In this document: positions 5,281 to 27,355 of the stretch, in pieces
Numbering within the stretch: the stretch's first letter is position 1
Layout of the letters: each line of letters begins with the position of its first letter
Assembly (NCBI GenBank): GCA_013373205.1
Contig: JABXIG010000013.1
Location: 1 to 64,000, forward strand
DNA from: Methylocystaceae bacterium
GTDB taxonomy: Bacteria > Pseudomonadota > Alphaproteobacteria > Rhodospirillales > Terasakiellaceae
Direction: 5' to 3'
Length of the DNA stretch: 64,000 nucleotides
Notes under the pieces: model-generated
What the model was told of the DNA's origin: nothing
What the model saw: the letters and a program-made list of their open reading frames with translations, nothing else
The model's database searches: none
Translations under genes and position numbers: made by a program

Positions 5281-5287
5281 CCTTGTA

Positions 5288-5350
5288 TCCCTACGCAGGT
5301 AGGGACCTTTAAACAATTTAAAGTAAAAAAGGTTCCTGCTTTCGCAAGAA
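5288..5350. repeat. Composite palindromic repeat (two hairpins), copy 1
   Basis: Two stem-loops 27 nt apart lie between the convergent MFS and ygiQ genes. The first is TCCCTAC-gcag-GTAGGGA at 5288-5305. The second is TTCCTGC-tttc-GCAAGAA at 5333-5350 with one mismatch. The same two-hairpin layout, with near-identical second hairpin, recurs at 22729-22795, and a single related hairpin lies at 15186-15205. This looks like a REP/BIME-like dispersed element that may also stop transcription from both sides. Confidence 0.6.
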
Positions 5351-5363
5351 AACAGAAGAAGGA

Positions 5364-7466
5364 TTAACGTCGATGTTTGCGTTGGCCGCCTTTTGTGTTT
5401 TTCGGTTTATCGTCAAACCGACGACGGCCCTTGCCTGCATGGGTCGTCACAAATTCCTGCTTTTTATGTTTGCGGCCCAAACGGGCCCCTTCACCGCCTT
5501 TGCCACCTGTGCCTTTGGGTTGCCAGCTCGGAACAAGATGCTTTTTGCCATTACCGATCAGATCAGCACGACCCATGTTTTTCAGGGCTTCGCGCAGGAT
5601 CGGCCAGTTTTCGGCATCATGATAGCGCAAGAAAGCTTTATGCAGGCGGCGTTGTTTTAACCCTTTTGCCGTACTGACCAGTTCCCCGCCATTGCGTTTG
5701 ACAGGCTTGATCGGGTTGCGACCGGAATAATACATGGCAGACGATAAAGACATGGGGGTGGGCGTAAAGGCCTGCACCTGATCGGCGCGATAATTATTGC
5801 GCTTCAGCCAAAGGGCAAGATGCATCATATCTTCATCGGAACAGCCCGGATGCGCGGCGATAAAGTAAGGGATCAGGTAATATTCCTTGCCCGCTTTTTT
5901 CGCTGCATCATCAAACATCTGTTTGAATTTATCGTAAGACCCAATGCCCGGTTTCATCATTTTGGAAAGGGGGGCATCTTCTGTATGTTCCGGGGCAATT
6001 TTCAGATAACCGCCCACATGATGTGTGACCAGTTCTTTTACATATGCCGGGCTTTTGACCGCCAAATCATAGCGCAGGCCCGACTGAATGGAAATTTTCT
6101 TCACACCTTTGACATCGCGGGCTTTGCGATAAAGTTCGATCAGGCTTTCATGGCTGGTGTTCAGGTTTTTACAGATGGTGGGATGCACGCAGGATAAGCG
6201 ACGACAGGTCTGTTCAATCTCCTTTGATTTACAGGCCATACGATACATGTTGGCGGTGGGGCCACCGAGGTCCGAGATTTGCCCGGTAAAGCCTTTGACC
6301 TTGTCGCGCATATCTTCAATTTCAGCCAGCACCGATTCCTGTGAACGGCTTTGAATGATACGCCCTTCATGTTCAGTGATGGAACAGAAAGAACAGCCGC
6401 CAAAACACCCACGCATGATGTTGATGGAAAATTTAATCATATCCCAGGCCGGGATACGCGCGTCCCCATAAGAAGGGTGCGGGTTGCGCGCATAGGGGTG
6501 ACCAAAGACCCAGTCCATTTCTTTGGTGGATAGCGGCACAGGTGGGGGCGTAATCCACACATCGCGATTGCCATGACGTTGCACCAGGGGGCGGGCATTG
6601 CCGGGATTACTTTCCAGATGCAAAACGCGTGAGGCTTGTGCATAGACATCCTGATCATCGCGTACGGTTTCATAGGACGGGATGCGCACGACAACCTTTT
6701 TTTCGCCCTTTATATCGCGTGGGGTGACATCATCGATGGAGGACATATCGACTTCCTGCCAATCATCCAGACTGTCATCGCGCATCAAGGCACAGCCACG
6801 CACATCAAAAAAGGTCTTGGGGTCTTCATCTCTTGCGATACGGTGTGCGACTTCGACCAAAGCCCGTTCAGCGTTGCCGTAAAGCAGAATGTCGGCTTTG
6901 CTATCCAGCAAAATGGAACGGCGTACTTTATCGGACCAGTAATCATAATGGGCGATGCGTCGCAAAGAGGCTTCGATCCCGCCGATGACGATAGGGACGT
7001 CTTTATAGGCCTCGCGACAACGTTGGGAATAAACGATGACGGCACGGTCCGGGCGTTTGCCACCAATATCATCAGGCGTGTAGCTATCGTTGGATCGGAT
7101 GCGACGGTCCGCCGTATAGCGATTGACCATACTGTCCATATTGCCCGATGTCACACCAAAAAACAGATTGGGCCGTCCTAAAGCTTTAAACGGATCGGCA
7201 TCCTGCCAGTCGGGTTGGGCGATGATGCCGACGCGAAAGCCTTGGGCTTCCAGCGTTCGGCCAATGACGGCCATGCCAAAGCTCGGGTGATCCACATAGG
7301 CATCCCCGGTGACAAGAATAATATCGCAACTGTCCCATCCCAGCATGTCCATTTCGTCACGGCTCATAGGCAGGAAAGGCGCCACACCAAAGCGGTGCGC
7401 CCAATATTTGCGATATTTGGTAATATCTTTGGCGTTTTCTGTTTGCATGACGTCTACATAAGGCAT
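5364..7466 (-). CDS. ygiQ: YgiQ family radical SAM protein
   Basis: This is a radical SAM enzyme of about 700 residues. The cluster-binding CxxxCxxC is [10 protein letters not shown] in the middle of the chain, preceded by a large N-terminal domain ([25 protein letters not shown] region) diagnostic of UPF0313/YgiQ. The C-terminal 70 residues are strongly basic and low in complexity (ending KGGQRKHRR), consistent with nucleic-acid contact, but the reaction of this family is unknown to me. The ATG at 7466 is preferred to the TTG at 7475. The gene stands alone on the minus strand, head-on with the MFS gene. Confidence 0.93.
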
Positions 7467-11125: not shown

Positions 11126-11485
11126 TTACTTCTTCTTTTTTTTCTTTTTCTTTTTTTCCTTGGGTGCACCAAAGTCGACGATAATGTCATTTTCACTGAC
11201 AAGCCAAAGGTTTAGAAGCGTCTGACTTTTTTTAGCCCAATCAGGAACGGTTGTTTCTAATGCCTTTTCTACCGTATCAATATAATCGGTATCGGGTGTG
11301 CGCTCATCTTCATTGGCATTTTTCATCAGCGTTTTCAGGCTTGCCTTGGCCTCGCCCGGTACCCAGGTTGCCAGCCATTCTTTCCCTTCTGCACGCTTTC
11401 TTTCCATATAACTGGCTTGTGCTGTGGCGTGACGCGCACGCTTTTCTTTGACCGTCGGTTTATTAGATTTTGATGCTTCTGTCAT
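11126..11485 (-). CDS. Small hypothetical protein with poly-lysine C-terminus
   Basis: The protein has about 119 residues from the ATG at 11485, which has a strong GGGAAGGGA ribosome binding site; a longer frame to 11539 lacks one. The N-terminal third is rich in Lys, Arg and Ser. The middle (ATWVPGEAKASLKTLMKNAN) resembles a ribbon-helix-helix strand followed by a helix, a weak match. The last 12 residues are almost all lysine (EKKKKKKKKK), encoded by an A-rich run prone to slippage. I do not recognise the family. A nucleic-acid-binding role is plausible from charge only. Confidence 0.7.
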   Translation of the reverse strand: MTEASKSNKPTVKEKRARHATAQASYMERKRAEGKEWLATWVPGEAKASLKTLMKNANEDERTPDTDYIDTVEKALETTVPDWAKKSQTLLNLWLVSENDIIVDFGAPKEKKKKKKKKK

Positions 11486-11604
11486 GGTTTGTCCCTTCCC
11501 TGATAGAAGAAGGGTAACAATTTGAAAGGGGTTCGTCAAAAAAAAGGGCTGGAGATTTTGTGAAATTTGCCTATTGTGCGCTAAATTTTATTAGGCTTTG
11601 GCAC

Positions 11605-15218: not shown

Positions 15219-17027
15219 TTAATTCCTGAAAGGCGGTGGTGGCCTTCTGGGGGCTGGCGGTCTGTTAAAGGGTCGTGGCGGGGGGGCTGGCTTGCGATAA
15301 TCAGTTTTGGCTTCATAAGTTTGGTGCGGTTTAGGGCACAAGTTTTGTAAATTTTTAGCCATCTGAATGAAACGACGACGATCTTGTCTGTCTTTAAAAC
15401 TGTAGGGTCCATATTGATAAAGCGGGATTTCTTTCACCACATCACCCGTTTCATCATGGGCGCGTAAAATTCGTTTTTTACGGTTGAGGTCACGCCAGAA
15501 CATAGCTTCGACTTTGTGGTCGTGGATATTCAGGTTCTTGCCACCGTTTGGGCTGCGATGTTTTAAGCTGATCGATGCGGCAATACTGCATTGGTTGGCA
15601 TCAATTTTGATCCAGTTATAATTGAATTGGGTGCGGTTGAATTTTTTATCCTGATCGTCAATAAAGCTTTGACGCGCCAGTATCGCGCCCATGGTTTTTA
15701 AATTTTTTTCGATCTGCGCGAATAAATCCCTGTCATCAGCGGACTCATAGAGGCGTCTTTCAATAATTTCGGTGGTGTCTTGATCTTTTGGTGGTGCCGG
15801 TAAAATGTCGTTGGTTGAGGCAATACGGGTCTGTTCTTCCAGCTTTTCCAGTCGGGCTTTCAGTTCGCGAATGGCGCGGTTTTCTTCTTCTGTTGCGATT
15901 TCTTTTTCTTCACCCAGCAGGTCTGCAAATACATAACCGATGATGTCATTACCTTTTTCGATCGCATACCACGGACGATCCGTAACTTTGGCAGCTACAT
16001 GGATGGGTTCCCCTTTGGGTAACATATCGACCTTGGCAGACCTGACGGTGGGGGCGGCACGCACATTGGCATTTTTGACGGCAAACATATTTTCTTCGAC
16101 AGGGGTCAAATCAAATTCATCGGTGACCACTTGGATCGCTTCGGCTTCAATTACCGGGCGTTTGGGGAATGTGCCATCGGTTGCTTTGGACAAAACAAGA
16201 TCGGTTCGTCCACGGACCATTGGCGTTTGATCCCGGTTATAGGTGCGTCGGGCTTTATAGCGCATTTCTTCCTGCAAAAAGGCGTTCACTTCAACCAGTT
16301 TGACTTCGCCATCTTCATCGCGGTCCGCTTCACCATAAAGGGCACGCAGAAGGTACTCGGTAAATAAACCGTGCTTGCTTTCTTCATCCCAGCTTGCCAG
16401 CTGGTCTTTGGATGCTGCGGTGAGCACGGTTAAGGTATCATTATTCGGAAGGGGAGATGGAGCATCCACGATTTGCGCGCCGGAAGCCCGGCTGATCAAA
16501 CTACCGCCGTGGCTTTGTCCGCTAAAACAGGCATCTAAAAAGACGGTGACGGATTTAGCTTCCACACGGGAAAGATTTTGATAAAGCGTTTCAATTGCAT
16601 AGCCGTTAATGTCTGCGGTTTCGATATCTGCATCAACAGGCAGAAGGTAGCTTTTATCATCATATCGACCGGGCATGCCATGTCCTGAATAAAAGACATA
16701 CAGATTGGACACATTGGGTTTTACATATTGAAAAGCCTTGCCACGATGATTGCCCGCACGTCCAAAAGCGGATTGCATCTTGGCTTGGGTTGCGTTTTCC
16801 AGATAGATGATATTTTCATCACGAATATGCAGGACTTCCTGGGCGAGTTTTTTAATCGCCTTGGCATCATTTAAGGCAAAGCTGACTTCCGGGATATCCT
16901 GATCATCATAGGCCTTGTTCCCGATGATGATGGCAACGTCATCGCTATAGCTTTGGCTACTTTGTGCCGCAGCCAACGGGCTTGCCCAGAAAAGCGATCC
17001 GGTTATGAGAAGATGCAATGCCTTCAT
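15219..17027 (-). CDS. Secreted caspase-family (C14) protease with SH3 domain
   Basis: The protein has 602 residues and begins with a signal peptide ending PLAAAQ at about residue 22. A peptidase C14 domain follows (about 28-270). The catalytic His is in YVFYSGHGMPG and the Cys in TVFLDACFSGQS. A bacterial SH3 domain (about 320-375) contains NVRAAPTVRSAKVDMLPKGE. A coiled-coil stretch (about 380-410) and an unrecognised C-terminal region follow, ending in a Pro/Arg-rich tail (RPPAPRRPPPPFRN). It should act in the periplasm. It is downstream of the glycine-zipper gene on the same strand and divergent from the 13-gene envelope cluster, whose proteins are candidate partners or substrates. The cleavage specificity is unknown. 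Confidence 0.88.
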   Translation of the reverse strand: MKALHLLITGSLFWASPLAAAQSSQSYSDDVAIIIGNKAYDDQDIPEVSFALNDAKAIKKLAQEVLHIRDENIIYLENATQAKMQSAFGRAGNHRGKAFQYVKPNVSNLYVFYSGHGMPGRYDDKSYLLPVDADIETADINGYAIETLYQNLSRVEAKSVTVFLDACFSGQSHGGSLISRASGAQIVDAPSPLPNNDTLTVLTAASKDQLASWDEESKHGLFTEYLLRALYGEADRDEDGEVKLVEVNAFLQEEMRYKARRTYNRDQTPMVRGRTDLVLSKATDGTFPKRPVIEAEAIQVVTDEFDLTPVEENMFAVKNANVRAAPTVRSAKVDMLPKGEPIHVAAKVTDRPWYAIEKGNDIIGYVFADLLGEEKEIATEEENRAIRELKARLEKLEEQTRIASTNDILPAPPKDQDTTEIIERRLYESADDRDLFAQIEKNLKTMGAILARQSFIDDQDKKFNRTQFNYNWIKIDANQCSIAASISLKHRSPNGGKNLNIHDHKVEAMFWRDLNRKKRILRAHDETGDVVKEIPLYQYGPYSFKDRQDRRRFIQMAKNLQNLCPKPHQTYEAKTDYRKPAPPPRPFNRPPAPRRPPPPFRN

Positions 17028-17076
17028 GATCTATCCAAACATAAATATCTTTTCCCTATAAAATATAGGCTTACTG

Positions 17077-17511
17077 CTACCAATGGCAACGCTTACCTTT
17101 TTTATTACAAATGAGAACATCATCGTCATAAGATCCAACACGGTGCCATTTTTTGTTTTTGCGCGGGCGTTCTTCGACGATCACGACTTTTTTGCGTGGC
17201 GGTGATTTGCGATAAACAACGCGTTCACGTTCATAGTTGTCGTCATAGACACGACGGCGCGGGCGATCATAGTAATCGTCATTGCTTTGACCTTTGGCAA
17301 TTTCATGACCGAGCACAGCCCCGATGACGGTTCCGGCAGCAGTGGCCACGATACGTCCTTTACCTTTTCCCGCTGCGGAGCCTAAAAGCCCGCCTCCGAC
17401 GGCACCGATGATTGTGCCAATGGTCGTGTCATCAGCATGGGCGGTGTGTTGCGGTGTGCCTGAAATGATAAGGGCACCGGCAAGTGCTAAACTCAACATA
17501 AAGCGTTTCAT
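17077..17511 (-). CDS. Glycine-zipper 2TM envelope protein
   Basis: From the ATG at 17511 the protein has about 144 residues. A signal peptide ends near HTAHAD. A glycine zipper (IGTIIGAVGGGLLGSAAGKG) and a second GTVIGAVLGHEIAKG follow, typical of the Rick_17kDa/glycine-zipper outer-membrane-associated family. The C-terminal half is very basic, with RPRRR and KKVVIVEERPRKNKKW, and ends in a small Cys pair (ICNKKGKRCHW). It precedes the caspase gene by 49 nt and is probably cotranscribed with it. Confidence 0.8.
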   Translation of the reverse strand: MKRFMLSLALAGALIISGTPQHTAHADDTTIGTIIGAVGGGLLGSAAGKGKGRIVATAAGTVIGAVLGHEIAKGQSNDDYYDRPRRRVYDDNYERERVVYRKSPPRKKVVIVEERPRKNKKWHRVGSYDDDVLICNKKGKRCHW

Positions 17512-17608
17512 GGGACTGATCCTTTTCACGTTTAAACGGTTTACTTATTCGGGCTATGGGGGAGGCAGAGGTGTTTTTTCTTTTCTTTGTAAAATTTATT
17601 TTATTTTT

Positions 17609-17636
17609 TCAAAAAGGCGCTCTCATCTCTCCATAG
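17609..17636 (+). promoter_or_regulatory. Shared promoter-like element, copy A
   Basis: The 28-nt segment begins TCAAAAAGGCG and ends CTCTCCATAG. A 29-nt segment beginning TCAAAAAAACGC and ending CTCTCCATAG occurs at 22823-22851. Both lie about 35-42 nt before the first start codon of a plus-strand gene run in the same locus, after a T-rich stretch. TTCAAA and CCATAG, 17 nt apart, could be the -35 and -10. The pair suggests coregulation of two transcription units. The sigma factor is not identified. Confidence 0.55.
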
Positions 17637-17677
17637 CCTTGTGCAGATGCAGGAAACCCGCAGAAAGGTTTAGTGAG

Positions 17678-18520
17678 ATGTTTATGAAAAAAGCGATGAT
17701 TGCCCTGATTTGTATTTGTTTATCGTCTCAGGCGCTGGCAGGTGAGCCCCCGCGCGTGCTTTATATGGAAGTGAATCAAGGCCAAGATATGATCAGCCGG
17801 GATAATCCGGCTTTTCGCAGGATTTTTGACCATACTGGAAATTTTCTACAGCATGAAAATATTCGCCTGTTTGAAGAAGGTCGCGACATCGTTGGTGGGC
17901 GTTCTTTTGATGAAGCCATGGATATTGCAAGCCAGGCCAAACGTAAAAAACTGGATGCGGTTGTTTTGGTGTCCGTGGATCAGAAAACAAGACACAGCAA
18001 TGGCAAATTAAAAGACCGTTTGATCGCAAGCGCAAAAATCATTGATGCGCAAACACTGGAACTGGTCGATATCATCCGCGTGAAAAGTCCGGTGGCGATC
18101 TTGTCGGATCGGGAATGTTCAGATGAATGCCGCAATATGATTACGCGCCGTCATGTCCGTGAAATCCTGCCGGAATTTAAAGATAAACTGGCAATCCGTC
18201 TGATTGATTATCGCCCGCGCGTGGCAGAGGTGAAAAAATCCCCAAGCGAGCTGACCTTGACCTTAAAAGGTTTTAAGGAGCGCGAGGTTTATTATCTGGA
18301 AGATCGTATCCAACGTCTGGCAGGCACACGCGATTTAAGTTCCTTGCGTTCCAATCCCTCCAAACCGGCTTACTGGCTGGAACGTCGCCAAGATGCCGAT
18401 AATGTGCGTGATGAACTGGCAGAGGTTTTGGCCAGCCTGAATTTAAAAGCCCGCATTATCCAAACCGAAAGACAGGTCACCCTGATTAAGGTGAACCAAG
18501 ATCTGGCTTATCTGGATTAA
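17678..18520 (+). CDS. Secreted TolB/CsgG-like protein, envelope cluster gene 1
   Basis: I do not recognise the family firmly. From ATG 17678 (AAAGG 8 nt upstream) the protein has 280 residues. A signal peptide ends SSQALAG. The next 120 residues (RVLYMEVNQG, ENIRLFEEGRDIVGG, LDAVVLVSVDQ, SAKIIDAQTLELVDI) have the alternating pattern of the TolB-N/CsgG/FlgT middle fold, in which a small domain computes or binds in the periplasm. The C-terminal region (about 190-280) is charged. The apparent upstream extension to 17324 is antisense to the glycine-zipper gene. It is the first gene of the cluster, 13 nt ahead of the ExbD-like gene. Confidence 0.65.
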   Translation: MFMKKAMIALICICLSSQALAGEPPRVLYMEVNQGQDMISRDNPAFRRIFDHTGNFLQHENIRLFEEGRDIVGGRSFDEAMDIASQAKRKKLDAVVLVSVDQKTRHSNGKLKDRLIASAKIIDAQTLELVDIIRVKSPVAILSDRECSDECRNMITRRHVREILPEFKDKLAIRLIDYRPRVAEVKKSPSELTLTLKGFKEREVYYLEDRIQRLAGTRDLSSLRSNPSKPAYWLERRQDADNVRDELAEVLASLNLKARIIQTERQVTLIKVNQDLAYLD

Positions 18521-18533
18521 GGGGAGCAGGGAC

Positions 18534-18974
18534 ATGAGTGATACGACACAAACCAATGCCATGGCAGAAATTGCACTGGCTCTTGCCATGGGGTTCTTTT
18601 CCATCATGGTGTTGACCATGGTTTCCATGGGCAGCGGCATGGTCAGTCAAGCAGCACAGTCCAGCATCAAGGAAGATCCGATCAATATTGCAAAAACGGC
18701 TGAACAAAGTAAGCGCGCGCCTAAAGAGGGTGAAGCATCAGCCGTGGCACCTGAAAATTTGGTGATTTTTTATCACGGACACTACCTTGATAACCAGCTT
18801 CAGCCTGTTGATCCGTCGGACCTAATGGGGCGTGATAAAGTTGTTCTTGCTGTGTCCCCCGATCTGTCCATGTCTAAAACCATGCAAGCGCGCAAGACAC
18901 TTGCTGTTCAGGATATCACGGTTGTCGTCCTAAACGAAAAATGGCTTATGGCGTTGAAGGAGGCCGCGCTATGA
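18534..18974 (+). CDS. ExbD/MotB-like single-span membrane protein, cluster gene 2
   Basis: The protein has 146 residues: a short cytoplasmic start, one hydrophobic helix (about 13-34, EIALALAMGFFSIMVLTMVS) and a periplasmic region of about 100 residues with strands such as NLVIFYHGHYL, KVVLAVSPDLSM and ITVVVLNE. Length, topology and the small C-terminal alpha/beta domain match ExbD/TolR/ZorB-type stator partners. The usual helix Asp is replaced by Glu at residue 12, if the role is the same. The identity is inference from layout; a MotA/TolQ/ExbB-like partner lies at 24792-25289. It overlaps the transglycosylase start as ATGA. Confidence 0.6.
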   Translation: MSDTTQTNAMAEIALALAMGFFSIMVLTMVSMGSGMVSQAAQSSIKEDPINIAKTAEQSKRAPKEGEASAVAPENLVIFYHGHYLDNQLQPVDPSDLMGRDKVVLAVSPDLSMSKTMQARKTLAVQDITVVVLNEKWLMALKEAAL

Positions 18975-19666
18975 AACACATCACCCTTGTCTGGTTGCTG
19001 GCCTTGTTTATGGCAGCCGCCATTCTTTCAACTGCCGAAGCGGCAAGCCGGTTTGAGATTAAACAAATGGTCATGAGCGAAGCCAGCCGATCTAACGTTC
19101 CGGTTTCTCTTGCCATGGCAGTTGCTAAGGTGGAGTCTGATTTTAATGCCCGTGCGCTGAGTTCGGCCGGGGCACGCGGTGTCATGCAGATTATGCCAGC
19201 AACGGCACAAAAAGAATTTGGTGTTCATCCTGATCGTCTTTGGAACGCTGAAACCAATATTCGCTTGGGGGTGCAGTTTCTCGAACAGCTTTATGACCAA
19301 TATGATGGGCGCTGGGATCTCGTTTTGTCTCATTATAATGGCGGCACGGTGAAAAGCGGGCGTCCGCATGGTTTTACCGTGGCCTATGTCAATAAAGTGC
19401 AGAAATGGCAAAAAATCTACAGTGAGCAGGCAAGCCTATGGGAAGCCATTGATGAATCCCCGATCATAACGGCATCAGATGATTACAAGGTTGCCGACTT
19501 GCAGGAATGGCGCACACGTGATCTGGAAGAACCTTATATCGAAGATGATTTCTATGAAGAAGACCATTATGTCGATGATTGGGCAGAAACCCGCATCATC
19601 ATTGTGGAACGCCGTGATGACTGGGGATGGCGTCACCCGCCACCGCCGCGTGGGCATTTCCGTTGA
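18971..19666 (+). CDS. Lytic transglycosylase (SLT domain), cluster gene 3
   Basis: This is a periplasmic peptidoglycan lytic transglycosylase of 231 residues from ATG 18971. A signal peptide ends STAEAA. The SLT domain carries the catalytic Glu in AKVESDFNARALSSAGARG, then VMQIMPATAQ and the SHYNGG motif. After the domain, about 80 residues are acidic (EEPYIEDDFYEEDHYVDDW) and then change to RIIIVERRDD and a HPPPPRGHFR terminus. This tail is unusual and resembles the VIVEERPR segment of the glycine-zipper protein and the Pro/Arg end of the caspase. It could open the wall for assembly of the cluster's apparatus. Confidence 0.88.
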   Translation: MKHITLVWLLALFMAAAILSTAEAASRFEIKQMVMSEASRSNVPVSLAMAVAKVESDFNARALSSAGARGVMQIMPATAQKEFGVHPDRLWNAETNIRLGVQFLEQLYDQYDGRWDLVLSHYNGGTVKSGRPHGFTVAYVNKVQKWQKIYSEQASLWEAIDESPIITASDDYKVADLQEWRTRDLEEPYIEDDFYEEDHYVDDWAETRIIIVERRDDWGWRHPPPPRGHFR

Positions 19667-19715
19667 TTAGGATGGATGATCGCTATATCCTCACCCTATC
19701 AATGGGGAGATGGAC

Positions 19716-21146
19716 GTGGACAACACAGAATCATTGTTATTGCGCGCAGGGGGAAAAGATCAGCTTTTAGCTGATTTCTGTGCGTTGAAAGAGGCTTTGA
19801 CTCTGGAAGGGTTGCCCAAATATGCAGAACGTCCCGTTCTTGAAAATTTAGCAAAGTTCCTTACGGCCCAAAGCGGTGGCCCGCACAAAGATATCGCCCT
19901 TTATGAATTGGCCCATCTCGTTTATGGCGTGGCCGATCATTTGGGAAAAGACAGGGTGACGGATTTTTTCCTCAGTCCTGATAAAGCGAGCCCTAATCGT
20001 TATCAGTCCCTTTTTGCAGATAGTTGTGATGAACAGGGTCTCAAGCTGATTTATGATGATGGGGTTTTTGTCATTCGTTATGGTCGCATGGGGTTTCTTT
20101 GTGCGCTTTATGAATTTTTGTGTTCGATGGATGGCTTTAGCCATTTTGCAGATATTACCGCTACTTTCGAGAAATTGACGAATGGTCCCCTAACGGGTTC
20201 TTCTTTAAGAACATGTGCCAATACCTTGGGATCAATCTTGCGCAAATACCGTATGGCTTATCTGACAAGCGCCGCCGGGGATGGTAAATTCACACAGGTT
20301 TATAAGTTTTTGCATGAAAATTCCCACGATGGGCAGATTATTTTAAAGGACGATTCGGTTTTGGACTTCTGGTGCCTCCATAACAAAGGCAAAGAGTACA
20401 AAGGATACCGAACCGTGTTTGATTTATTTTCTGACTTCGCCCACGCTTTTGAAGAAAGCCAACGCGGGCAGAACGCCCATCGCGCCGCCCCGCTTGGTCT
20501 GGATCATGAGGCAGGTGAGATCGATCTTGCCCATGATGATGTAGAAACCGCGATGTTGGAAGAGTGGTCTTCTCCCTTCGATATTTTTGATGAAGATGAC
20601 TTTAGCGATATTCGCTTTTTCAAAAAGAAATCGGAACGTGGACCTATTGAAAATCTGATGGCTTATGGACCCGATGCGTTGCGCTTGCCTGTGGCATTTG
20701 TGCGCTATGAAGTTTTTGGACAAGTGCAATCGGGCATCACCAATGATTTACAGGTGGGTCGTGGTAAGGCATCCGTTGAACAACGCATGAGCTGTGACGC
20801 GGCTGTGAGCTATGAAGATCGGGTTAAAGAATGCATTGCGATCCGCAGCCATATTAAAGCCTTGCAAGCTTCCAGCCTGCATGTGTTAGCTCAGGATCAG
20901 GATGAAAAGGTGGTGTCGTTCACGCAAAAAGCCTTTAGCAAAATGACCCGCAAAGGCTTTGATGATCAGGCACTGGGAAAATCCGATGTGTTTGCCAAGG
21001 CGGCCGATGCGCTTGTCGTCATGGAACGTCAGTTGGATCGTTATATCGAGAACTTGGAAGCACAAAACTTAAAAACTCTGTTTGATCAGGACCGTGCGAC
21101 CTTTCAAAATGAATTTAGCCAACTTTATAAGGAGGCCGTGACATGA
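19716..21146 (+). CDS. Unrecognised soluble protein, cluster gene 4
   Basis: The family is not recognised. The protein has about 476 residues, no signal peptide and no membrane helix, so it is probably cytoplasmic. I prefer the GTG at 19716, which has GGGGAG six bases before it; the ATG at 19710 sits directly against that sequence. Mostly helical by appearance, it has an acidic middle (residues 270-305, with EEWSSPFDIFDEDDFSD) and a C-terminal heptad-like helix (VMERQLDRYIENLEAQNLKTL). It overlaps the next gene as ATGA. It may be a cytoplasmic scaffold or regulator of the apparatus. Confidence 0.7.
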   Translation: MDNTESLLLRAGGKDQLLADFCALKEALTLEGLPKYAERPVLENLAKFLTAQSGGPHKDIALYELAHLVYGVADHLGKDRVTDFFLSPDKASPNRYQSLFADSCDEQGLKLIYDDGVFVIRYGRMGFLCALYEFLCSMDGFSHFADITATFEKLTNGPLTGSSLRTCANTLGSILRKYRMAYLTSAAGDGKFTQVYKFLHENSHDGQIILKDDSVLDFWCLHNKGKEYKGYRTVFDLFSDFAHAFEESQRGQNAHRAAPLGLDHEAGEIDLAHDDVETAMLEEWSSPFDIFDEDDFSDIRFFKKKSERGPIENLMAYGPDALRLPVAFVRYEVFGQVQSGITNDLQVGRGKASVEQRMSCDAAVSYEDRVKECIAIRSHIKALQASSLHVLAQDQDEKVVSFTQKAFSKMTRKGFDDQALGKSDVFAKAADALVVMERQLDRYIENLEAQNLKTLFDQDRATFQNEFSQLYKEAVT

Positions 21147-21670
21147 ACAAATATGTGATTGACCTTGCCTTAAAAGAGGTGGCACAAGCTCATTTCGTAG
21201 ATCAAGATAACGCGCGTTCTTTAATGAATAGCCATGCAGAAGGTTCTTTGGCGGCAAGCCGGATTTATCGCTATGTCATGGGTGGGCAGGATGACACTGT
21301 GGCAAAAGCGGTGCGTGAAAATTTATCCGTGCGTCGGATATATCGTGAGCTTTTGGCGAAAACATCTGCCTTTTATATCCCCGAAGCTTTGGCCGCCAGC
21401 ACAGAAGAGTATCCGGAACGTCATGGCGAAGGCTGTCTGGTCCGACTTCAGGATTCACGCGCGCAGGCGGATCAGGTTTATCTGATTATTGAAGTGAAAG
21501 ATCAGCGCCGGGACTTACCTAAAAGCCTGACGCTCTTTGGGGTCGAGGATAAGATGGTAAGCCTTGACTTGCCCGCCGGACGCAATGGTGTGGTGCAAAC
21601 CATCATTGACCGGTCATCCCTTGCAGCCGTGCTACTGGCCGACCCAAAGACGGAGATTTTCCTCAGGTGA
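21143..21670 (+). CDS. Unrecognised small soluble protein, cluster gene 5
   Basis: The protein has 175 residues with no signal peptide or membrane segment. The N-terminal half is helical (KEVAQAHFVDQDNARSLMNSH, AKAVRENLSVRRIYREL) and the C-terminal half looks like a small beta domain (VYLIIEVKDQR, KMVSLDLPAGRNGVVQTIID). I do not recognise it. It overlaps both neighbours (ATGA upstream, GTGA downstream), so all three are translationally coupled and probably needed in balanced amounts. Confidence 0.7.
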   Translation: MNKYVIDLALKEVAQAHFVDQDNARSLMNSHAEGSLAASRIYRYVMGGQDDTVAKAVRENLSVRRIYRELLAKTSAFYIPEALAASTEEYPERHGEGCLVRLQDSRAQADQVYLIIEVKDQRRDLPKSLTLFGVEDKMVSLDLPAGRNGVVQTIIDRSSLAAVLLADPKTEIFLR

Positions 21671-22725
21671 GACGTATCGCCATATTGATTGCCACAACGG
21701 GTGGGCCTGTCCTTGTGGACCGGATCACGCCGGAGCCGGCCCCGCAATCCATGGTCTGTTTAAGACGGCAATCCGATGTGTTGCCGATTAGTGCAGACTA
21801 TGATGATTTTGTGCGTCCCGGCAGCGGGGTCATCATGCGCGAATTTGGCCCCTATGAAGAAGGTGCCTTCCGTCTGGATGTGAGCGATGTGATCGGCACG
21901 GGGTTAAGCTGGCAACTGGGCGTCTTTGCTGCCCATGCGATCTTTGAATCTGATGAACATGTTCTGTCTGATCTGGAAACGGCCGATCAGATTATCTGGC
22001 TGACAGGCACAGTTGATTATGATCTGAATGTTGGGGATGTGGACCATATGGCTGAAAAGGTCGAAAGTTCGGCCCTCATGCTGTCTGAATATATTACAAA
22101 AGGCACCCCGATTATTTTTGCAGCCGGACAGGAAAATGCCAAGTTTCTGGAAGACCATCAACCGCCACAAGGGATCACGGTTGTTTCACTTGAAAATACC
22201 AATGATCTTTTAAAAGTTTTGGGCCTTGTCAAAGAAGTCCCTGCCCAGGCCCCTAGCCGCAATACAAGTTTTTGGCCCATGGCGGTGCTGGCGCTTTTGG
22301 CTGTTGGCGCTGTTTTTGCCTATAGCCAACAAGAAACGGTGTCTGAAAAAACTGAAGAGGTTGCTTTAGAAATTGATGTGACCTCGGACCGTGGTGAAAA
22401 TCCGATTTTCTTTTATGGGGATTATCTGAACCTGTGGGTTGAGGTGACGCAGGAAGCCTGGGTCAGCTGTTTTTATAAACAGGTCGATGGCACCATTTTC
22501 CAACTCTATCCCAATGATAAGGTGGTTGAGGTCCAAAGCTTTTCCCCCAAGCACAAACACGTCCTTTCAGGCGGGAACAATGCCACGTTCGCCATTCAGT
22601 TCGGCCCACCGGCAGGCAAGGAAGAAGTGCGCTGTTACGCAAGCCCCAATCAGATTGACATCGACCCTGAAAATCCACCGCATGATGTGGCGGTTGATGT
22701 GTTGCGTTTTGATTTGAAACCTTAA
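21667..22725 (+). CDS. Single-span membrane protein with periplasmic DUF4384 domain, cluster gene 6
   Basis: The protein has 352 residues and starts at a GTG that overlaps the previous stop. Residues 1-195 form a globular, probably cytoplasmic domain (starting RRIAILIATTGGPVLVDR). A single helix lies at about 202-219 (FWPMAVLALLAVGAVFAYS). The rest is a DUF4384-type domain, recognised by GDYLNLWVEVTQEAWVSCFY followed by VDGTIFQLYPN. DUF4384 is often found with secreted or caspase-containing systems. The topology would connect cytoplasm and periplasm. It ends the first transcription unit; a two-hairpin repeat lies 3 nt beyond its stop. Confidence 0.75.
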   Translation: MRRIAILIATTGGPVLVDRITPEPAPQSMVCLRRQSDVLPISADYDDFVRPGSGVIMREFGPYEEGAFRLDVSDVIGTGLSWQLGVFAAHAIFESDEHVLSDLETADQIIWLTGTVDYDLNVGDVDHMAEKVESSALMLSEYITKGTPIIFAAGQENAKFLEDHQPPQGITVVSLENTNDLLKVLGLVKEVPAQAPSRNTSFWPMAVLALLAVGAVFAYSQQETVSEKTEEVALEIDVTSDRGENPIFFYGDYLNLWVEVTQEAWVSCFYKQVDGTIFQLYPNDKVVEVQSFSPKHKHVLSGGNNATFAIQFGPPAGKEEVRCYASPNQIDIDPENPPHDVAVDVLRFDLKP

Positions 22726-22728
22726 TGT

Positions 22729-22795
22729 GCTCCTGTGAAGACAGGAGCCTTTCTATGATGGGCTTGATCTTTAAAGATTCCTGCCTTCGCAGGAA
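22729..22795. repeat. Composite palindromic repeat (two hairpins), copy 2
   Basis: GCTCCTGT-gaag-ACAGGAGC (22729-22748) and TTCCTGC-cttc-GCAGGAA (22778-22795) are perfect stems 29 nt apart, just after the DUF4384 gene. The arrangement and second hairpin match copy 1 at 5288-5350. The first hairpin is followed by CTTTCT, so it may also terminate the upstream transcription unit. Confidence 0.65.
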
Positions 22796-22822
22796 AACAA
22801 AATAAACTTTTGTTATTTTTCC

Positions 22823-22851
22823 TCAAAAAAACGCCTCTGTTCTCTCCATAG
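22823..22851 (+). promoter_or_regulatory. Shared promoter-like element, copy B
   Basis: This is the second copy of the TCAAAAA...CTCTCCATAG element also present at 17609-17636, here 36 nt before the lipoprotein start at 22888. Between the two copies the A-run, the CGC core and the CTCTCCATAG end are conserved. It probably starts the second transcription unit of the envelope cluster. Confidence 0.55.
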
Positions 22852-22887
22852 ACCTGTTAACAGGATTAACTTGATGGAGTGAGGAGC

Positions 22888-23457
22888 ATGTTTGCTTTTT
22901 CGAAATTCACTAAAAAACGAGCCGTGACAGGCTTAAGTTTCGCTCTTGTCGGGGTGGCTTTGTCGGCTTGTGTGACGCAACCGCCATCCTTTGGGGAGGG
23001 CATTGATTTTCGCGAAGCACGCTATAATGAAATTTCAGCGATGCGTGAATATCGCGATTGCCGCGATCATGCTTTGGAGCTGGATCGTGAAGCTCAGACC
23101 AATCACGATGGCGCCAAATATCTGGCAAGTGCGCGCATGATCGAAAAATGCGAGGCCAAGCTCGGTCCTGATGTGGCTGATATTGCTGTGGATGAACGGA
23201 TGCGCGCGTATGCATTGACCATCCAGAATCATTTAAAAGGCGGTGATGTTGAACAGGCTCGCGTCAATTTGGATAAGTTCAGCAGTAACTTTGATGGTCG
23301 TGATCTCTATTTCGCCGATGGATCATCCTTCATTCAAACCATGGAAGTGTTGCTTGGTAAACGCGGGGCTGCCTCTTTGGGGCGTTACAGTGATGCCAAT
23401 GTGAACAAGGGTCTGAAAAGTGAATTACGTCGTGTTCGTTATTGGGAACGCAACTAG
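22888..23457 (+). CDS. Lipoprotein, cluster gene 7
   Basis: The protein has 189 residues from ATG 22888, which has GAGGAG just before it. A basic N-terminus and hydrophobic stretch lead to the lipobox ALSAC, so the Cys should be lipidated. The mature part is helical with TPR-like spacing (AMREYRDCRDHALELDREAQ, AKYLASARMIEKCEAKLG, GGDVEQARVNLDKFSSNF). The function is not recognised. As first gene of the second unit it could anchor the apparatus to a membrane. Confidence 0.7.
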   Translation: MFAFSKFTKKRAVTGLSFALVGVALSACVTQPPSFGEGIDFREARYNEISAMREYRDCRDHALELDREAQTNHDGAKYLASARMIEKCEAKLGPDVADIAVDERMRAYALTIQNHLKGGDVEQARVNLDKFSSNFDGRDLYFADGSSFIQTMEVLLGKRGAASLGRYSDANVNKGLKSELRRVRYWERN

Positions 23458-23473
23458 GGTTTAGGAGGTCATC

Positions 23474-24382
23474 ATGTCAGAATTTCCCTTAATGATACAA
23501 CAGACAAGCCCTTCAAGATTGGCAACTGTGCTGGGGGCTGTGTTTTTGGGTGGTGTGATCCTTGTTGGTTCGGCTTCGGTGGCTTTATCATCGCCGAAAT
23601 GGACACCGCAAAGTTCAGAACGTTTGGTGAAGCTGCCGCCCAGTTATTTACAAAAATCCATCGATCATGATTTTGCGAATTCCGAACTGGGCACCGCAAT
23701 TCAGGAAAAAGAAGAAAACCTGTCTTTGAAAGGCAGCACACTTGGTGATTTGCAACAAGCCATCGAAACAGCAGACGGTGATGTTCGTGCCGATTTGCGC
23801 CATCAGTTTCTGGCTGAAAAGCGCAACTACCTTGCTATGATGTCGGAACGTAACGAACTGCGCCGCAAACATCTGATGACCAAACGTCGCCTGTTTGACG
23901 ATATGTTAAGCCGCTTGTCTGCCGAAGAAGGTGAAATGACGCCGGAAAAAGAAGAATTACTGGCCTTACAAGATGCGGCAGCAGAACGGTTTGAAAGTTC
24001 GCTGGCAAAAGTCGATCAACGTTTATTTGAAGCGCCTGATTTGGAAGAAAGCAAATATTCTAAACAATATGCGCAGAATAAAACGGCGATTGAACAATTG
24101 GTTGCCCGTATCGATACCCACAAGATGAATGAAATGCCTATGGCTGAAAATGGTGTGATTATGACCCGCGAAGAACATGTGCGACGCATGGTGGCTGATG
24201 TGCAGACCGAACTGGCTGTGCTGGATCAGGAAGAAACCATTCTGGGCTATATGGCCAAACTGGTTGCGCTGGATGCCATGGCATTGGCCGAAGACGGTCT
24301 GGATGAGGAATTAATCGATAGTGACGTCGCCCAAAATTCTTTAACCCCGGCTAAAAACGTTTCGTTCTTTTTAAATAATTAA
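23474..24382 (+). CDS. Membrane-anchored periplasmic coiled-coil protein, cluster gene 8
   Basis: The protein has 302 residues with an excellent AGGAGGT site before ATG 23474. One hydrophobic helix (about 15-36, LATVLGAVFLGGVILVGSAS) is followed by a long charged, helical region rich in Glu, Leu and Arg (for example DLQQAIETADGDVRADLRHQ and LSRLSAEEGEMTPEKEELLA), consistent with a periplasmic coiled coil. The family is not recognised. It may span or brace the periplasm beside the TonB-like proteins. Confidence 0.68.
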   Translation: MSEFPLMIQQTSPSRLATVLGAVFLGGVILVGSASVALSSPKWTPQSSERLVKLPPSYLQKSIDHDFANSELGTAIQEKEENLSLKGSTLGDLQQAIETADGDVRADLRHQFLAEKRNYLAMMSERNELRRKHLMTKRRLFDDMLSRLSAEEGEMTPEKEELLALQDAAAERFESSLAKVDQRLFEAPDLEESKYSKQYAQNKTAIEQLVARIDTHKMNEMPMAENGVIMTREEHVRRMVADVQTELAVLDQEETILGYMAKLVALDAMALAEDGLDEELIDSDVAQNSLTPAKNVSFFLNN

Positions 24383-24406
24383 GTCCTTGATGAAGGAGAT
24401 GATCTT

Positions 24407-24790
24407 ATGAAAACCAAGTTTTTAATTCTCGCTGGTGCAGCCTTTATGGCTTTTGCAACGGCTGCTCAAGCTGGCACCCTTGAAAATCTGGAACGCGAAC
24501 GTTCCATGACCGTTAATACTTTCCTTGATTCAAGCCTGAGTGTGGATGAACGACAAGCCAAGCTGGATAGTCAACGCCGCCGTCTGGTCGATCTGGAACG
24601 GATTGTCATGCGTGACAAATCCTTGCGTGGTCAAAATACTAAAACCGTGCGGATTGCGTTTCAAAATTATGACGTAACGTTCCTTGGTCATGCCTCGGCT
24701 GAAAAGGGCCATACGATGGTGGATCACTGGTTGACCCAGTTTGGTGTCTCTACTGATAGCTTAATGTCCACCCGTGTCGGGAGCCGATAA
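24407..24790 (+). CDS. Small secreted protein, cluster gene 9
   Basis: The protein has 127 residues. A clear signal peptide ends ATAAQAG near residue 23. The mature part begins with a helical charged segment (ENLERERSMTVNTFLDSSL) and ends in a short mixed region (FQNYDVTFLGHASAEKGHTM). The ribosome binding site AAGGAGA is strong. I do not recognise the family; it should be a soluble periplasmic component. Its stop is separated by one base from the next start. Confidence 0.68.
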   Translation: MKTKFLILAGAAFMAFATAAQAGTLENLERERSMTVNTFLDSSLSVDERQAKLDSQRRRLVDLERIVMRDKSLRGQNTKTVRIAFQNYDVTFLGHASAEKGHTMVDHWLTQFGVSTDSLMSTRVGSR

Positions 24791-24791
24791 A

Positions 24792-25289
24792 ATGAAACAG
24801 GCCCTTCACATGGCAGACAGCGGCTCACGTGCCTTAAGCTACCTGTTGGGGGCTTTATGTATCGGGTTGGCCGCAGCCGTTTATGCTACATCACAAGCCC
24901 CGGGCGCGATTGCGCAATGGACCCTTGAAGTCTTTGGCGTGTCGTTTGTGGCCCTTTTTTCCCTCCTTGTTTTTGTGTCTCTTTTCAGCTGGGTTCGCAT
25001 GGGGCAAGTCCCCCAAAACCGTGATTTTTGGCTGGAAGTGGGCTTGCATGGTGCCAATGGGGTCTCTACGCTTGCACTGACTTTTACTTTGTTAGGGATC
25101 AGTCTGGGCATTGGCACGTTGGCAGAACAGGAACTGACACCGCAAACCGTACAGTCCATTATTCAGGAACTGACCAAACATTTTTCACTCGCCTTCTTAA
25201 CCACCGTTGTGGGGTTACCGTCTGCGGCTGTGCTGCGCGCGGTGTTGTCCATTACCCATCAACGTCAGCTGACAGGAGATCCCTCATGA
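24792..25289 (+). CDS. MotA/TolQ/ExbB-like proton channel protein, cluster gene 10
   Basis: The protein has 165 residues and four hydrophobic helices (about 14-32, 50-68, 91-111, 129-150). The last two match the core of the MotA/TolQ/ExbB family. Helix 3 is ALTFTLLGISLGIGTLA, where the family has a TLGLLGT-like motif. Helix 4 is FSLAFLTTVVGLPSAAVLRA, where the family has an A..T..GL..A.P pattern. Such proteins form a ring that uses proton flow to move a partner; the likely partner here is the ExbD-like protein at 18534. No large cytoplasmic domain is present. It overlaps the next gene as ATGA. Homology is by eye, so moderately sure. Confidence 0.68.
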   Translation: MKQALHMADSGSRALSYLLGALCIGLAAAVYATSQAPGAIAQWTLEVFGVSFVALFSLLVFVSLFSWVRMGQVPQNRDFWLEVGLHGANGVSTLALTFTLLGISLGIGTLAEQELTPQTVQSIIQELTKHFSLAFLTTVVGLPSAAVLRAVLSITHQRQLTGDPS

Positions 25290-25756
25290 AATATCTTGTC
25301 TTTAATTGTGCTGTTTTTCTTGCACTGGCTTATTTGATCGTCGGTGGGGAAAAGGCTGAACAGGTGACACAAAAGATCACACAATCCTTGGAACCTGCGG
25401 TCGAACAAACCATTTCAAAACCTTTGCCCGCAAAGACGATTATGGAAGAAAAGCCGGAACCTGTTCGACAGGTTGTGAAAAAGGAAGAGGTCAAACCGGT
25501 TGAAAAACCCGTTGTTAAAACAGCACCGCCGCCTATGCCTAAAGCTGTTGAAGTCGCGAAGGTTGAACCCAAGAAAGCGCCGTCACGATTTTCTGAAACT
25601 GCCGTGCCCACGAAACCTGCCCTGGTTTCAAAAACGCCAACTGTTGAAGAAACCGTGGAAGAAACTGAACTGGAAACAGCAAAAGAACGTTCCCGTGATT
25701 TACGCCGGATGGTGGCGGATATGGAACGGATGTTTGCTGAAAAAATGACCCGCTAA
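25286..25756 (+). CDS. TonB-like Pro/Lys/Glu-rich single-span protein 1, cluster gene 11
   Basis: The protein has 156 residues. An N-terminal helix (about 4-21, LVFNCAVFLALAYLIVGG) is followed by an extended region rich in Pro, Lys, Glu and Val (KPEPVRQVVKKEEVKPVEKP, KTAPPPMPKAVEV) and a C-terminal charged helix (KERSRDLRRMVADMERMFAE). The layout is that of TonB/TolA energy transducers, but no TonB C-terminal domain is present. It directly follows and overlaps the ExbB-like gene, as TonB-type genes often do. The start ATG 25286 has AGGAG upstream. Confidence 0.66.
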   Translation: MKYLVFNCAVFLALAYLIVGGEKAEQVTQKITQSLEPAVEQTISKPLPAKTIMEEKPEPVRQVVKKEEVKPVEKPVVKTAPPPMPKAVEVAKVEPKKAPSRFSETAVPTKPALVSKTPTVEETVEETELETAKERSRDLRRMVADMERMFAEKMTR

Positions 25757-25769
25757 CAGGACAAGCCTG

Positions 25770-26717
25770 ATGAAACCAGTGACATCACATACGCTTTCTA
25801 CCGCGGCGGCTGTTCTGTTTGCCCTGTGGGTCGTCGGGTTGTGGCTGGTTCCTGAAAAAGTCGATCATCAGGCCAAGTCTGTGGTGATGGAAAAGCCAAA
25901 GGAAATGGCAGAACCTGTGGTGCAACTTCAAGAGACACCACCGCAAACTCTTATTCTTCCTGCCCCGCCTCAAGTTGCCCCCAAGCCTGCGCTTGTGGTG
26001 GAAAAGGTTGCAGAGGTCAAAGAAGAAATTAAACCGACAGCGGAACCTGTTGTGGTGAATAAACCAGAAGCGAAGCTTGCGCCTAAACCTGCGCCTAAGC
26101 CCGTAGTTCAGGCAAACCCACAGCCGAAACCACAACCCAAACCAGCCCCCAAGCCAGTTGAAAAAATTCATCAGGTCAGTGCCACACAGGCGACAGGGGG
26201 GCGTGCTTTGTTGCGTGTCTTGGAACATGGCAAAGGACCATTGATCGAAATTGCATGGCCGCAACAGGCGCGTGCGCGTGACAGCTTACATGGAGCTTTT
26301 CAAAGCTGTTTCGGAATGGAAAATGCCCTGATGGATACAAGCGGCAATCTGTTTCGCATGGATGAGCCACGCGGTGTGCGCTGGGAAATTAATCTGGATC
26401 GTTTCAGTGGCTTCTTACGTCAGGCCAGTGGTCAATTACCCGCCACAGAAGAACGCATTGCCAGATCCGTTAAGCGCCATCACCGCAACCTTTCGGGGCC
26501 GATCATGGTTCGTATTTTTCCGCGACGGGTTGATGCCTCTTTACTGGCAGGTTTGAAAGCTGTGGTGGGTGAGGGATATATGCAGGCCAAATCCATTCAG
26601 GCGCGTTATGTGCAGGAAGGATCCAGAATATTGGTGCGTGATATCCGTCTGGATGGCCGCACCATTCAAGGGGCAGTTGAATTGTCAAAAGTCAAACGCT
26701 GTTCGGGGAGGGCATGA
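25770..26717 (+). CDS. TonB-like Pro/Lys-rich single-span protein 2 with novel C-terminal domain, cluster gene 12
   Basis: The protein has 315 residues. A single N-terminal helix (about 10-27) precedes a periplasmic Pro/Lys/Val-rich stretch to about residue 132, including APKPAPKPVVQANPQPKPQP and KPAPKPVEK. A globular C-terminal domain of about 175 residues follows (ALLRVLEHGKGPLIEIAW, ARDSLHGAFQSCFGMENAL), which I do not recognise as TonB_C or TolA. The architecture is that of an energy transducer reaching across the periplasm. Its stop overlaps the next start as ATGATG. Confidence 0.68.
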   Translation: MKPVTSHTLSTAAAVLFALWVVGLWLVPEKVDHQAKSVVMEKPKEMAEPVVQLQETPPQTLILPAPPQVAPKPALVVEKVAEVKEEIKPTAEPVVVNKPEAKLAPKPAPKPVVQANPQPKPQPKPAPKPVEKIHQVSATQATGGRALLRVLEHGKGPLIEIAWPQQARARDSLHGAFQSCFGMENALMDTSGNLFRMDEPRGVRWEINLDRFSGFLRQASGQLPATEERIARSVKRHHRNLSGPIMVRIFPRRVDASLLAGLKAVVGEGYMQAKSIQARYVQEGSRILVRDIRLDGRTIQGAVELSKVKRCSGRA

Positions 26718-27355
26718 TGCGAATTTTAAGTCTGATGTTGGTGTTATGTCTGGGAGCCTGTGTCACAGCACCGTCTTATCAAAATGTTCAAAAGACAGAA
26801 GGCGAGATCAACGCCCGCGATGTGAATTATAAAGTCACCGGGTTGTTTTACCGTGATCCACCCGATTGTGTCAGTGTCTTTCCCTCGCTTGCCAAGGATC
26901 GTCCCGCGATGGGTCAGGCTCTGTCTGTGGCGTTCGCGCGTCACTTGGGCGAAAAAGTAGATCGTGTCATTTTCCCAAGAAAACGTAAAACGATAGAGCA
27001 TGAAAATGGCTATGATTTAACTGAAAAACAGGATCGTTTGCGTTATTCCCTAAAGACACAATGTCGTTTTTATGCGCGTGCCCAACTGTATGATCTGGGC
27101 GATGAATATGTTGGGGTTTTTGCTGAAAAGCATCTTGGCGTGCGTCTTGACCTTTATCGCATTGAAGACGACCAACCGATCTGGCAGGCGGCACATACGG
27201 TCTGGCGTGCCGATGGGGGGGTGCCGTCTTCGCCTCTTGGATTGATCGGGGGGATGGCCAGTGCGGCCATGTTCAAGACCGATCAGGAGATTATGCCATC
27301 ACTTATTGATGATGCCATGCGCCGGATGATCCGAACGCTTCCCCCGGGTATATAA
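26714..27355 (+). CDS. Lipoprotein, cluster gene 13
   Basis: The protein has 213 residues with a signal peptide and lipobox CLGAC at about residue 15. The mature part (DCVSVFPSLAKDRPAMGQAL, VAFARHLGEKVDRVIFP, WQAAHTVWRADGGVPSSP, DDAMRRMIRTLP) resembles the general pattern of GNA1162/DUF799-like outer-membrane lipoproteins that accompany CsgG-like proteins, but the match is weak. It is the last gene of the cluster and converges on the flavoprotein gene. Confidence 0.68.
   Translation: MMRILSLMLVLCLGACVTAPSYQNVQKTEGEINARDVNYKVTGLFYRDPPDCVSVFPSLAKDRPAMGQALSVAFARHLGEKVDRVIFPRKRKTIEHENGYDLTEKQDRLRYSLKTQCRFYARAQLYDLGDEYVGVFAEKHLGVRLDLYRIEDDQPIWQAAHTVWRADGGVPSSPLGLIGGMASAAMFKTDQEIMPSLIDDAMRRMIRTLPPGI

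Follow-up and report, generated by a model that had tools for sequence, protein, structure and literature searches.

A conserved gene cluster of Terasakiella and its relatives that probably encodes a Tol/Ton-type trans-envelope machine

What is the function of a compact set of thirteen genes that lies divergent from a gene for a secreted caspase-like protease? This question was raised by a locus of a Methylocystaceae bacterium (Terasakiellaceae in the GTDB lineage; GenBank assembly GCA_013373205.1), which occupies positions 15219–27355 of the window, that is, the first 64,000 nucleotides of contig JABXIG010000013.1. A sequence-only reading had described thirteen plus-strand genes (g1 to g13) divergent from a minus-strand pair consisting of a glycine-zipper gene (gz) and a caspase-SH3 gene (casp), and we confirmed all fifteen open reading frames (ORFs) at their places. 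Our results indicated that the cluster probably encodes a trans-envelope machine of the Tol/Ton type, which resembles the Tol and Ton motors yet is composed differently, and whose task would lie at the outer membrane. In agreement with the earlier claim of novelty, this composition was not found described: among the matches listed, literature searches on combinations of MotA, TolQ, ExbB, ZorA, caspase, Lon-like protease and Terasakiella gave no description of the system, nor did the literature on DUF4384, judged by title and the start of the abstract.

The plus-strand genes were closely packed. Five of the twelve junctions were 4-base overlaps and five were gaps of 13–43 bases, while g9 and g10 overlapped by 17 bases or lay 1 base apart, depending on the choice of start codon; the sole wide junction, of 153 bases, separated g6 from g7. 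Pfam confirmed five of the labels given by the sequence-only reading, namely the caspase (4.4e-18), SH3 (SH3_3, 4.7e-9), glycine-zipper (2.2e-9), lytic transglycosylase (SLT, 4.2e-24) and DUF4384 (8e-12) assignments, and gave no convincing match for the other ten plus-strand proteins. NCBIfam and PADLOC scans, which took ten of the fifteen window proteins (g3, g7, g9, g11 and gz were left out), returned weak hints only.

The candidate for the proposed ExbB/TolQ/MotA-like channel is g10 (24774–25289, with a likely start at 24792), a helical protein of 165 residues from the likely start and a putative small A subunit of the MotA/TolQ/ExbB/ZorA superfamily. The ZorA2 model of PADLOC matched 45 of 53 g10 homologues at E values up to 0.1 (best 1.6e-5); the other ZorA models ranked after it, and unrelated models matched one member each. 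Through these matches, sequence homology of g10 to the MotA/TolQ/ExbB superfamily was found. The AlphaFold2 model of g10 was confident, with a predicted local distance difference test (pLDDT) score of 94.1, and the best matches in a Foldseek search were mostly TolQ, MotA and ExbB chains. In VIA-align comparisons, the model aligned with TolQ at Z 11.2 (3.1 Å, 115 aligned residues), with ExbB at Z 10.1 and with ZorA at Z 9.0 (2.4–2.6 Å), and TolQ or ExbB chains took nine of the ten highest fold rows. The TolQ, ExbB and ZorA rows (Z 9–11) covered model residues from about 36 to 165. The best TolQ alignment began at residue 39 and left out helix 2–33; MotA has a four-span layout, and this helix may form an extra N-terminal span that recalls it. 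The 115 aligned residues spanned TolQ 5–201, and the cytoplasmic domain of g10 is therefore nearly absent. In addition, the last two helices carried an invariant Thr99 and Gly141-Leu-Pro and a near-invariant Thr137/138.

Several results weighed against this assignment. The Pfam family MotA_ExbB (PF01618) weakly matched two of the 53 members at E values up to 0.1, and g10 matched neither the small local profiles of TolQ, ExbB and MotA (built on 6, 4 and 9 sequences of related genomes) nor a mixed set of the three, whereas the local profiles did match one another (TolQ–MotA 90%, ExbB–TolQ 99%, ExbB–MotA 93%). The Foldseek E values did not reach significance (best 0.27), the third-ranked hit was a designed protein, and a PDB sequence search with g10 gave no meaningful relative. 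Unrelated helical chains reached Z 8–9.8 against g10, and values up to 13 are possible for such folds, so the fold alone was not decisive. Collectively, the computation supported g10 as a member of the MotA/TolQ/ExbB superfamily, and the channel label stood on the ZorA2 matches and the fold, by a narrow margin, while the Pfam and local profile comparisons did not bear it out.

The second motor candidate, g2 (18534–18974), had been called ExbD-like. It contains one strongly conserved membrane helix in which Glu12 was invariant in all 45 homologues, and an acidic residue in a single membrane helix is a trait of ExbD/TolR-type B subunits. Weighing against the label, the Pfam family ExbD (PF02472) matched none of the 45 members at E values up to 0.1, and a PDB sequence search with g2 gave no meaningful relative. 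The hhalign comparison with ExbD was weak (25%, 16 local sequences) and concerned the periplasmic part only. The ExbD-like label thus rests on topology, the invariant Glu, this weak profile match and co-occurrence with g10. In a sample of 289 genomes of the class, g10 and g2 occurred together in 12, g10 alone in one (a fragment at a contig start), g2 alone in two and neither in 274; the sample totals were 13 for g10, 14 for g2 and 15 for g4. The Fisher p value for this co-occurrence was 2e-18, which has to be discounted because it ignores relatedness. Ten genomes lacked g2 in the stretch around g10, and all ten carried it elsewhere: 0.2–4.2 kb beyond the stretch end in loci L114, L116, L123, L125 and L129, on another contig in L103, L110 and L131, on a further short contig in L105, and about 29 kb away in L118. 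These results supported g2 as a near-constant genomic partner of g10. The same genome contained eight PF01618 and five PF02472 matches, none of which was g10 or g2, and genes of the two families adjoined on contigs C27, C39 and C59. Since such motors are kept elsewhere in the genome, the g1–g13 cluster is an additional system.

It could be argued that g10 and g2 form no ion channel at all, that g10 is an unrelated helical scaffold, and that the operon serves wall remodelling or signalling without an energy source of its own. The near lack of Pfam matches for g10 and g2 and the failure of the local profiles would fit this explanation, as would the chance matching of helical folds. We nevertheless regard it as unlikely, given the ZorA model matches in most g10 members, the predominance of TolQ and ExbB in the top fold rows, the invariant and near-invariant residues of g10, and the invariant acid in the helix of its partner.

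Another explanation is anti-phage defence of the Zorya kind, in which a ZorA/ZorB-like motor would detect damage to the envelope and trigger cytoplasmic effectors encoded by g4–g6 together with the caspase. ZorA models were the only clear family matches of g10, and the cluster holds both a Lon-like domain and a caspase-like protease. However, since PADLOC is a library of defence systems, its matches do not establish ZorA as the closest relative, and g10 lacks the long tail of the matched ZorA profiles (165 residues versus 461–683). None of the 45 g2 members matched ZorB and g2 gave no OmpA match, so no wall-binding B subunit was matched, and no ZorC, ZorD or ZorE was found among the ten scanned proteins. 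Furthermore, g10 had no match among 72,556 plasmids or 50,697 phages, leaving a plasmid or phage origin without support, and all six Terasakiella genomes carried the cluster in the same order (with one copy truncated at the end of its contig), a rather constant presence for a defence island. Defence therefore appeared very unlikely to us. A passage of PMC12505986 calls ZorAB more remote and names relatives of unknown function.

The neighbourhood of the cluster was conserved. In Terasakiella, the order g1–g13 with gz and casp was retained in four of five relatives, the fifth being cut by a contig end before g3. All six genomes of the genus searched, the present one included, carried g4 (57–61% identity in the relatives) and a more distant second g4 copy as well. 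In other families, several genomes retained the order g2–g13, with 24–64% identity to the window over the aligned g4, g10, g2 and g6. We found 129 relatives of g10 in named genomes and kept the best 80 as loci; these came from Alphaproteobacteria (Rhodospirillales, Sneathiellales, Kiloniellales and SAR116) and, in 18 cases labelled from titles, from Gammaproteobacteria. The neighbourhood was thus conserved beyond the Rhodospirillales rather than scattered. In a tree of g8 and g10, 16 of the 18 gammaproteobacterial loci formed one group and two fell among alphaproteobacterial rows, placements that are uncertain because some branches are long. In a gammaproteobacterial sample the core was rare, the sole carrier among 274 genomes being the starting genome.

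Module counts were based on 74 of the 80 loci, as the non-overlap filter had removed the g10 ORF from L069, L072, L074, L084, L100 and L115; 65 of them had enough upstream sequence and 65 enough downstream sequence. The genes g7, g8, g9 and g10 formed an unbroken run in 61 of the 65 loci testable on the upstream side, with g7, g8 and g9 each present in 63 of 65. Downstream, g12 was found in 65/65, g11 in 54/65 and g13 in 31/59 testable loci, and a divergent family took the g11 position in eight. Among the 47 loci with 8 kb upstream, 37 contained g2, 33 contained g4 and 25 contained g1; g3 came after g2 in 45 of 48 cases, as did g5 after g4 in 43 of 46. In the three Paraglaciecola genomes (L103, L110 and L118), g2 to g6 lay together at a second place and g7 to g12 at the first; no g13 turned up in these genomes, and g1 was present in only one of the three second places. 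Thirteen genomes had a locus lacking g4 (L077 was left out of this count), of which four carried g4 (in L116 just outside the examined stretch) and nine did not, so g4–g6 is optional. These results showed that g7–g10 with g12 is an almost inseparable core and that g4-g5-g6 is an optional second module.

Some relatives carried further genes in or near the cluster. A sensor-kinase family was found near it in 11 of 80 loci (including L080, 2852–5304); in L080, by eye, a response regulator and a small PepSY-looking secreted protein adjoin, the family of the latter occurring in four loci. In Colwellia and Glaciecola loci (L104, 5036–7810 and 14573–16978; L125, 343–2526), a protein kinase with an FGE-sulfatase domain lies inside the cluster; the L104 kinase carries a PG-binding domain too, and an FHA domain is present in the g6-like protein of Colwellia. 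This arrangement can be likened to the kinase-FHA control known from type VI secretion. In 9 of 80 loci, an OmpA-type family was found close to the core module (in L071 at 4913–5464, OmpA 1.7e-15), and its gene was 2.8–3.3 kb downstream of g10 in six of the seven positions listed.

The remaining core and neighbouring genes encode proteins of the envelope side. The first gene of the core module, g7 (22879–23457), and the less constant g13 (26714–27355) encode lipoproteins, as had been proposed: lipoboxes LSAC and LGAC were read from their sequences, and the lipobox Cys of g7 was invariant in 33 of 33 aligned homologues. Between them lie g8 (23474–24382, start possibly at 23492), a secreted protein that appeared coiled-coil-like by eye, and g9 (24407–24790), a small secreted protein. 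Upstream, g3 (18971–19666) encodes the SLT-family lytic transglycosylase, and g1 (17678–18520) a secreted protein. The proposed TolB/CsgG-like identity of g1 was not upheld: no CsgG or TolB family matched any of 27 homologues, and the profile similarity to a CsgG-like family was only 5%, although a CsgG-like protein is found near the same place in other loci. PDB sequence searches with g12, g1 and g8 gave no meaningful relative.

Two proteins were candidate linkers. The single-span, Pro/Lys-rich g11 (25286–25756) has an almost invariant Asn7 in its membrane helix (65 of 67 rows), and g12 (25770–26717), a single-span Pro-rich protein with a C-terminal domain, is the force-transducer candidate. 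Their architecture agreed with the TonB-like label given earlier, and the label rests on that architecture only; the Pfam TonB C-terminal families matched neither protein, which weighs against a Ton-type linker. An SHLS motif is reported for TolA, TonB and vWA transducers in a passage of PMC12204202. It was not conserved in g12, where His occupied position 7 in 4 of 52 rows, Ser occupied position 10 in 40 of 52, and Ser or Thr occupied position 14 in 39 of 52.

A motor-type core with Pro-rich periplasmic linkers and many envelope proteins could also drive movement on surfaces, or some other envelope complex that rotates or translocates, along the lines of AglRQS-Glt or GldLM, and g12 weakly matched GltJ (0.033). 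However, this match spanned only the low-complexity Pro-rich stretch, and none of the fifteen window proteins had a Pfam match to gliding or secretion machinery. Most of the relatives are marine bacteria that are not known to glide. We consider this explanation improbable to much the same degree as defence.

A Tol/Ton-type machine remained the reading that we prefer, and the comparison with the known motors was consistent with its distinct composition. The cluster shares with Tol-Pal the A-subunit superfamily, a single-span acidic B subunit, single-span linkers and lipoproteins, and in some relatives an OmpA-type gene accompanies the core. In contrast, none of the fifteen window proteins matched a TolA or TolB domain in Pfam, and the cluster has two linkers, its own lytic transglycosylase and a Lon-like branch, while PF01618–PF02472 pairs lie elsewhere in the genome. 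It also differs in the Glu of g2, since known ExbD/TolR-type B subunits carry Asp, as stated in part of PMC12204202. The channel, the single-span partner and the Pro-rich linker recall the architecture of Ton (ExbB-ExbD-TonB), but the TonB similarity of g12 ended at the N-terminal and Pro-rich part (E 0.6), and no receptor gene was found among the thirteen cluster genes. The vWA force transducers beside TolQ-like genes described in part of PMC12204202 are likewise uncharacterised motor-linked transducers; they differ in composition, and Pfam found no vWA domain in the window proteins. The same source states that further motor-linked transducer systems remain to be discovered.

The optional module begins with g4 (19710–21146), a cytoplasmic helical protein, followed by g5 (21143–21670), a small cytoplasmic protein tied to g4, and g6 (21667–22725), in which a cytoplasmic Lon-like domain, one membrane helix and the DUF4384 domain are predicted. 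The AlphaFold2 model of g4 was nearly all-helical (pLDDT 89.9), and five residues were invariant in 41 sequences of its family. No significant fold match was obtained for g4, with residues before about 212 barely covered, and a PDB sequence search gave no meaningful relative. The N-terminal domain of g6 matched Lon proteases in a PDB sequence search at E values down to 2.9e-5, and hhalign against eight Lon domains gave 87% (E 4e-6), compared with 0.2% for a reversed control. Gly79, Ser81, Trp82 and Lys131 of g6 were invariant in 37 of 37 sequences. Lys131 aligned with the catalytic Lys of Lon; Ser81 was matched to the Lon Ser by spacing and eye because it lies outside the aligned stretch, and on this basis g6 has the Ser-Lys dyad of a Lon-type domain. 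The likeness to Lon proteases (S16) therefore covers the region, the position of the catalytic Lys and the invariant Gly-x-Ser and Lys, whereas g6 has no AAA+ match, has Trp after the Ser and is anchored in the membrane to DUF4384. The computation supported the prediction that g6 is a DUF4384 protein starting with a Lon-like domain, and a combination of such a domain with a membrane helix and a periplasmic DUF4384 domain was not seen among the literature matches listed.

A second cluster on contig C27 of the same genome (L032, 7303–16777) contains relatives of g1, g3, g4, g5 and g6 and no channel genes; it also includes a FlgT_N-like protein (0.0099, below the cut-off) and, by eye, a GGDEF-type gene. 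Similar clusters were observed in L044 and L045. Directly 3' of g6, a perfect 8-pair hairpin lies at 22729–22748. Its candidacy as a conserved terminator was rejected, as none of nine relatives had such a stem directly after g6; L036 and L037 had other, weaker stems there.

The wide g6–g7 junction also contained a shared element, a candidate promoter signal. In several relatives, this gap contained a run of A followed by CTCTSNYCYCNCCATAR, and the pattern first read there then turned up in the window upstream of g1 and gz too. With up to two mismatches, it occurred at three sites in the window against 0.17 expected. In its 17-base form, the copies before g1 (17620–17636, plus strand) and g7 (22835–22851, plus strand) were exact, and the copy before gz (17554–17570, minus strand) had one mismatch. 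The scan took in the window region and a further 90 loci totalling 1.36 Mb, and left out nine loci on contigs duplicated under another identifier. All 16 exact matches and 24 of 26 one-mismatch matches of the 17-base form lay at starts of system genes, a 16/16 result that is partly fitted because the form was tuned on all sites; 30 scrambled patterns gave a mean of 0.97 matches and a maximum of 5. The element lay mostly 34–58 bases before the gene start. Of the 24 near matches, one was 187 bases upstream of a system gene, and four were just inside called ORFs (g7 of L036, L037 and L119; g1 of L035), probably due to overlong start calls; the two matches away from system genes were in L039 and L042.

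The distribution of the element was narrow. Only 12 of the 90 loci besides the window had a match at a system gene, and most others had none at all. The sites came from Terasakiella genomes and a few further loci, some of them near relatives, and are not independent because six genomes belong to one genus. Genome-wide, in a scan that included four Terasakiella genomes, the present genome had five matches, three of them at the cluster, and the backward control had two; in two genomes of other families, the backward control gave 0 versus 2 and 5 versus 3 element matches. Since the element precedes system genes in all three units, g1–g6, g7–g13 and gz-casp probably form one regulon in Terasakiella. 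In two other Terasakiella genomes, the element was also observed about 190–200 bases before a cytochrome c gene (L268 at 1501; L247, by eye, on the minus strand at about 1501), and a gene of this type adjoins the second cluster in L032.

The caspase had been presented as a headline component of the locus, and this did not hold. The protein encoded by casp (15219–17027) is a secreted caspase-like protease (Peptidase_C14) with SH3, in which the His and Cys motifs, SGHG (114) and DAC (165), are intact; a PDB sequence search with it gave no meaningful relative. By its p20 domain, it was found in only 6 of 80 loci (a less strict profile of the full length gave 9 of 80), and it was rejected as a core part. 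In Terasakiella, casp lies just downstream of gz (17077–17514; Rick_17kDa_Anti, 17 kDa antigen type) on the same strand, gz is preceded by the element, and a relocated caspase gene in L041 has its own copy. A lineage-specific accessory under the same control as the cluster is the best explanation of the caspase. The sequence-only reading had missed the Lon-like domain and the division into two modules, as well as the second cluster and the shared element. Elsewhere in the window, the product of a minus-strand ORF at 11126–11539 ends in a long lysine run.

These parts suggest how a Tol/Ton-type machine might work, with the g10/g2 assembly, the proton use and the outer-membrane job all being putative. 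Five g10 would surround two g2, and proton flow via Glu12 of g2 would move g2. At the membrane helix, g12 (and g11) would bind the motor and pass force across the wall, which the g3 lytic transglycosylase would locally open. The force would reach a complex of the lipoproteins g7 and g13 with the secreted g8 and g9, and the likely job would be maintaining or loading the outer membrane, alongside the ordinary motors of the ExbB/TolQ type. Meanwhile, g4–g6 would probably sense the envelope via DUF4384 and signal or cleave in the cytoplasm via the Lon-like domain.

Only a few known machines transfer energy from the inner to the outer membrane. We tentatively suggest, at somewhat less than an even chance, that the cluster represents a separate class of trans-envelope proton motors beside Ton, Tol, Mot, Agl-Glt, Gld and Zor, with an unusually small A subunit nearly without a cytoplasmic domain, a Glu-bearing B subunit, two linkers, a Lon-like protease branch that would report the outer envelope to the cytoplasm, and one dedicated promoter element in the genus. 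The genes for motor, linkers, wall opening and lipoproteins, together with a regulatory element, are a ready genetic unit in the culturable genus Terasakiella, and, if the reading is true, this unit would serve to ask what else such motors do.

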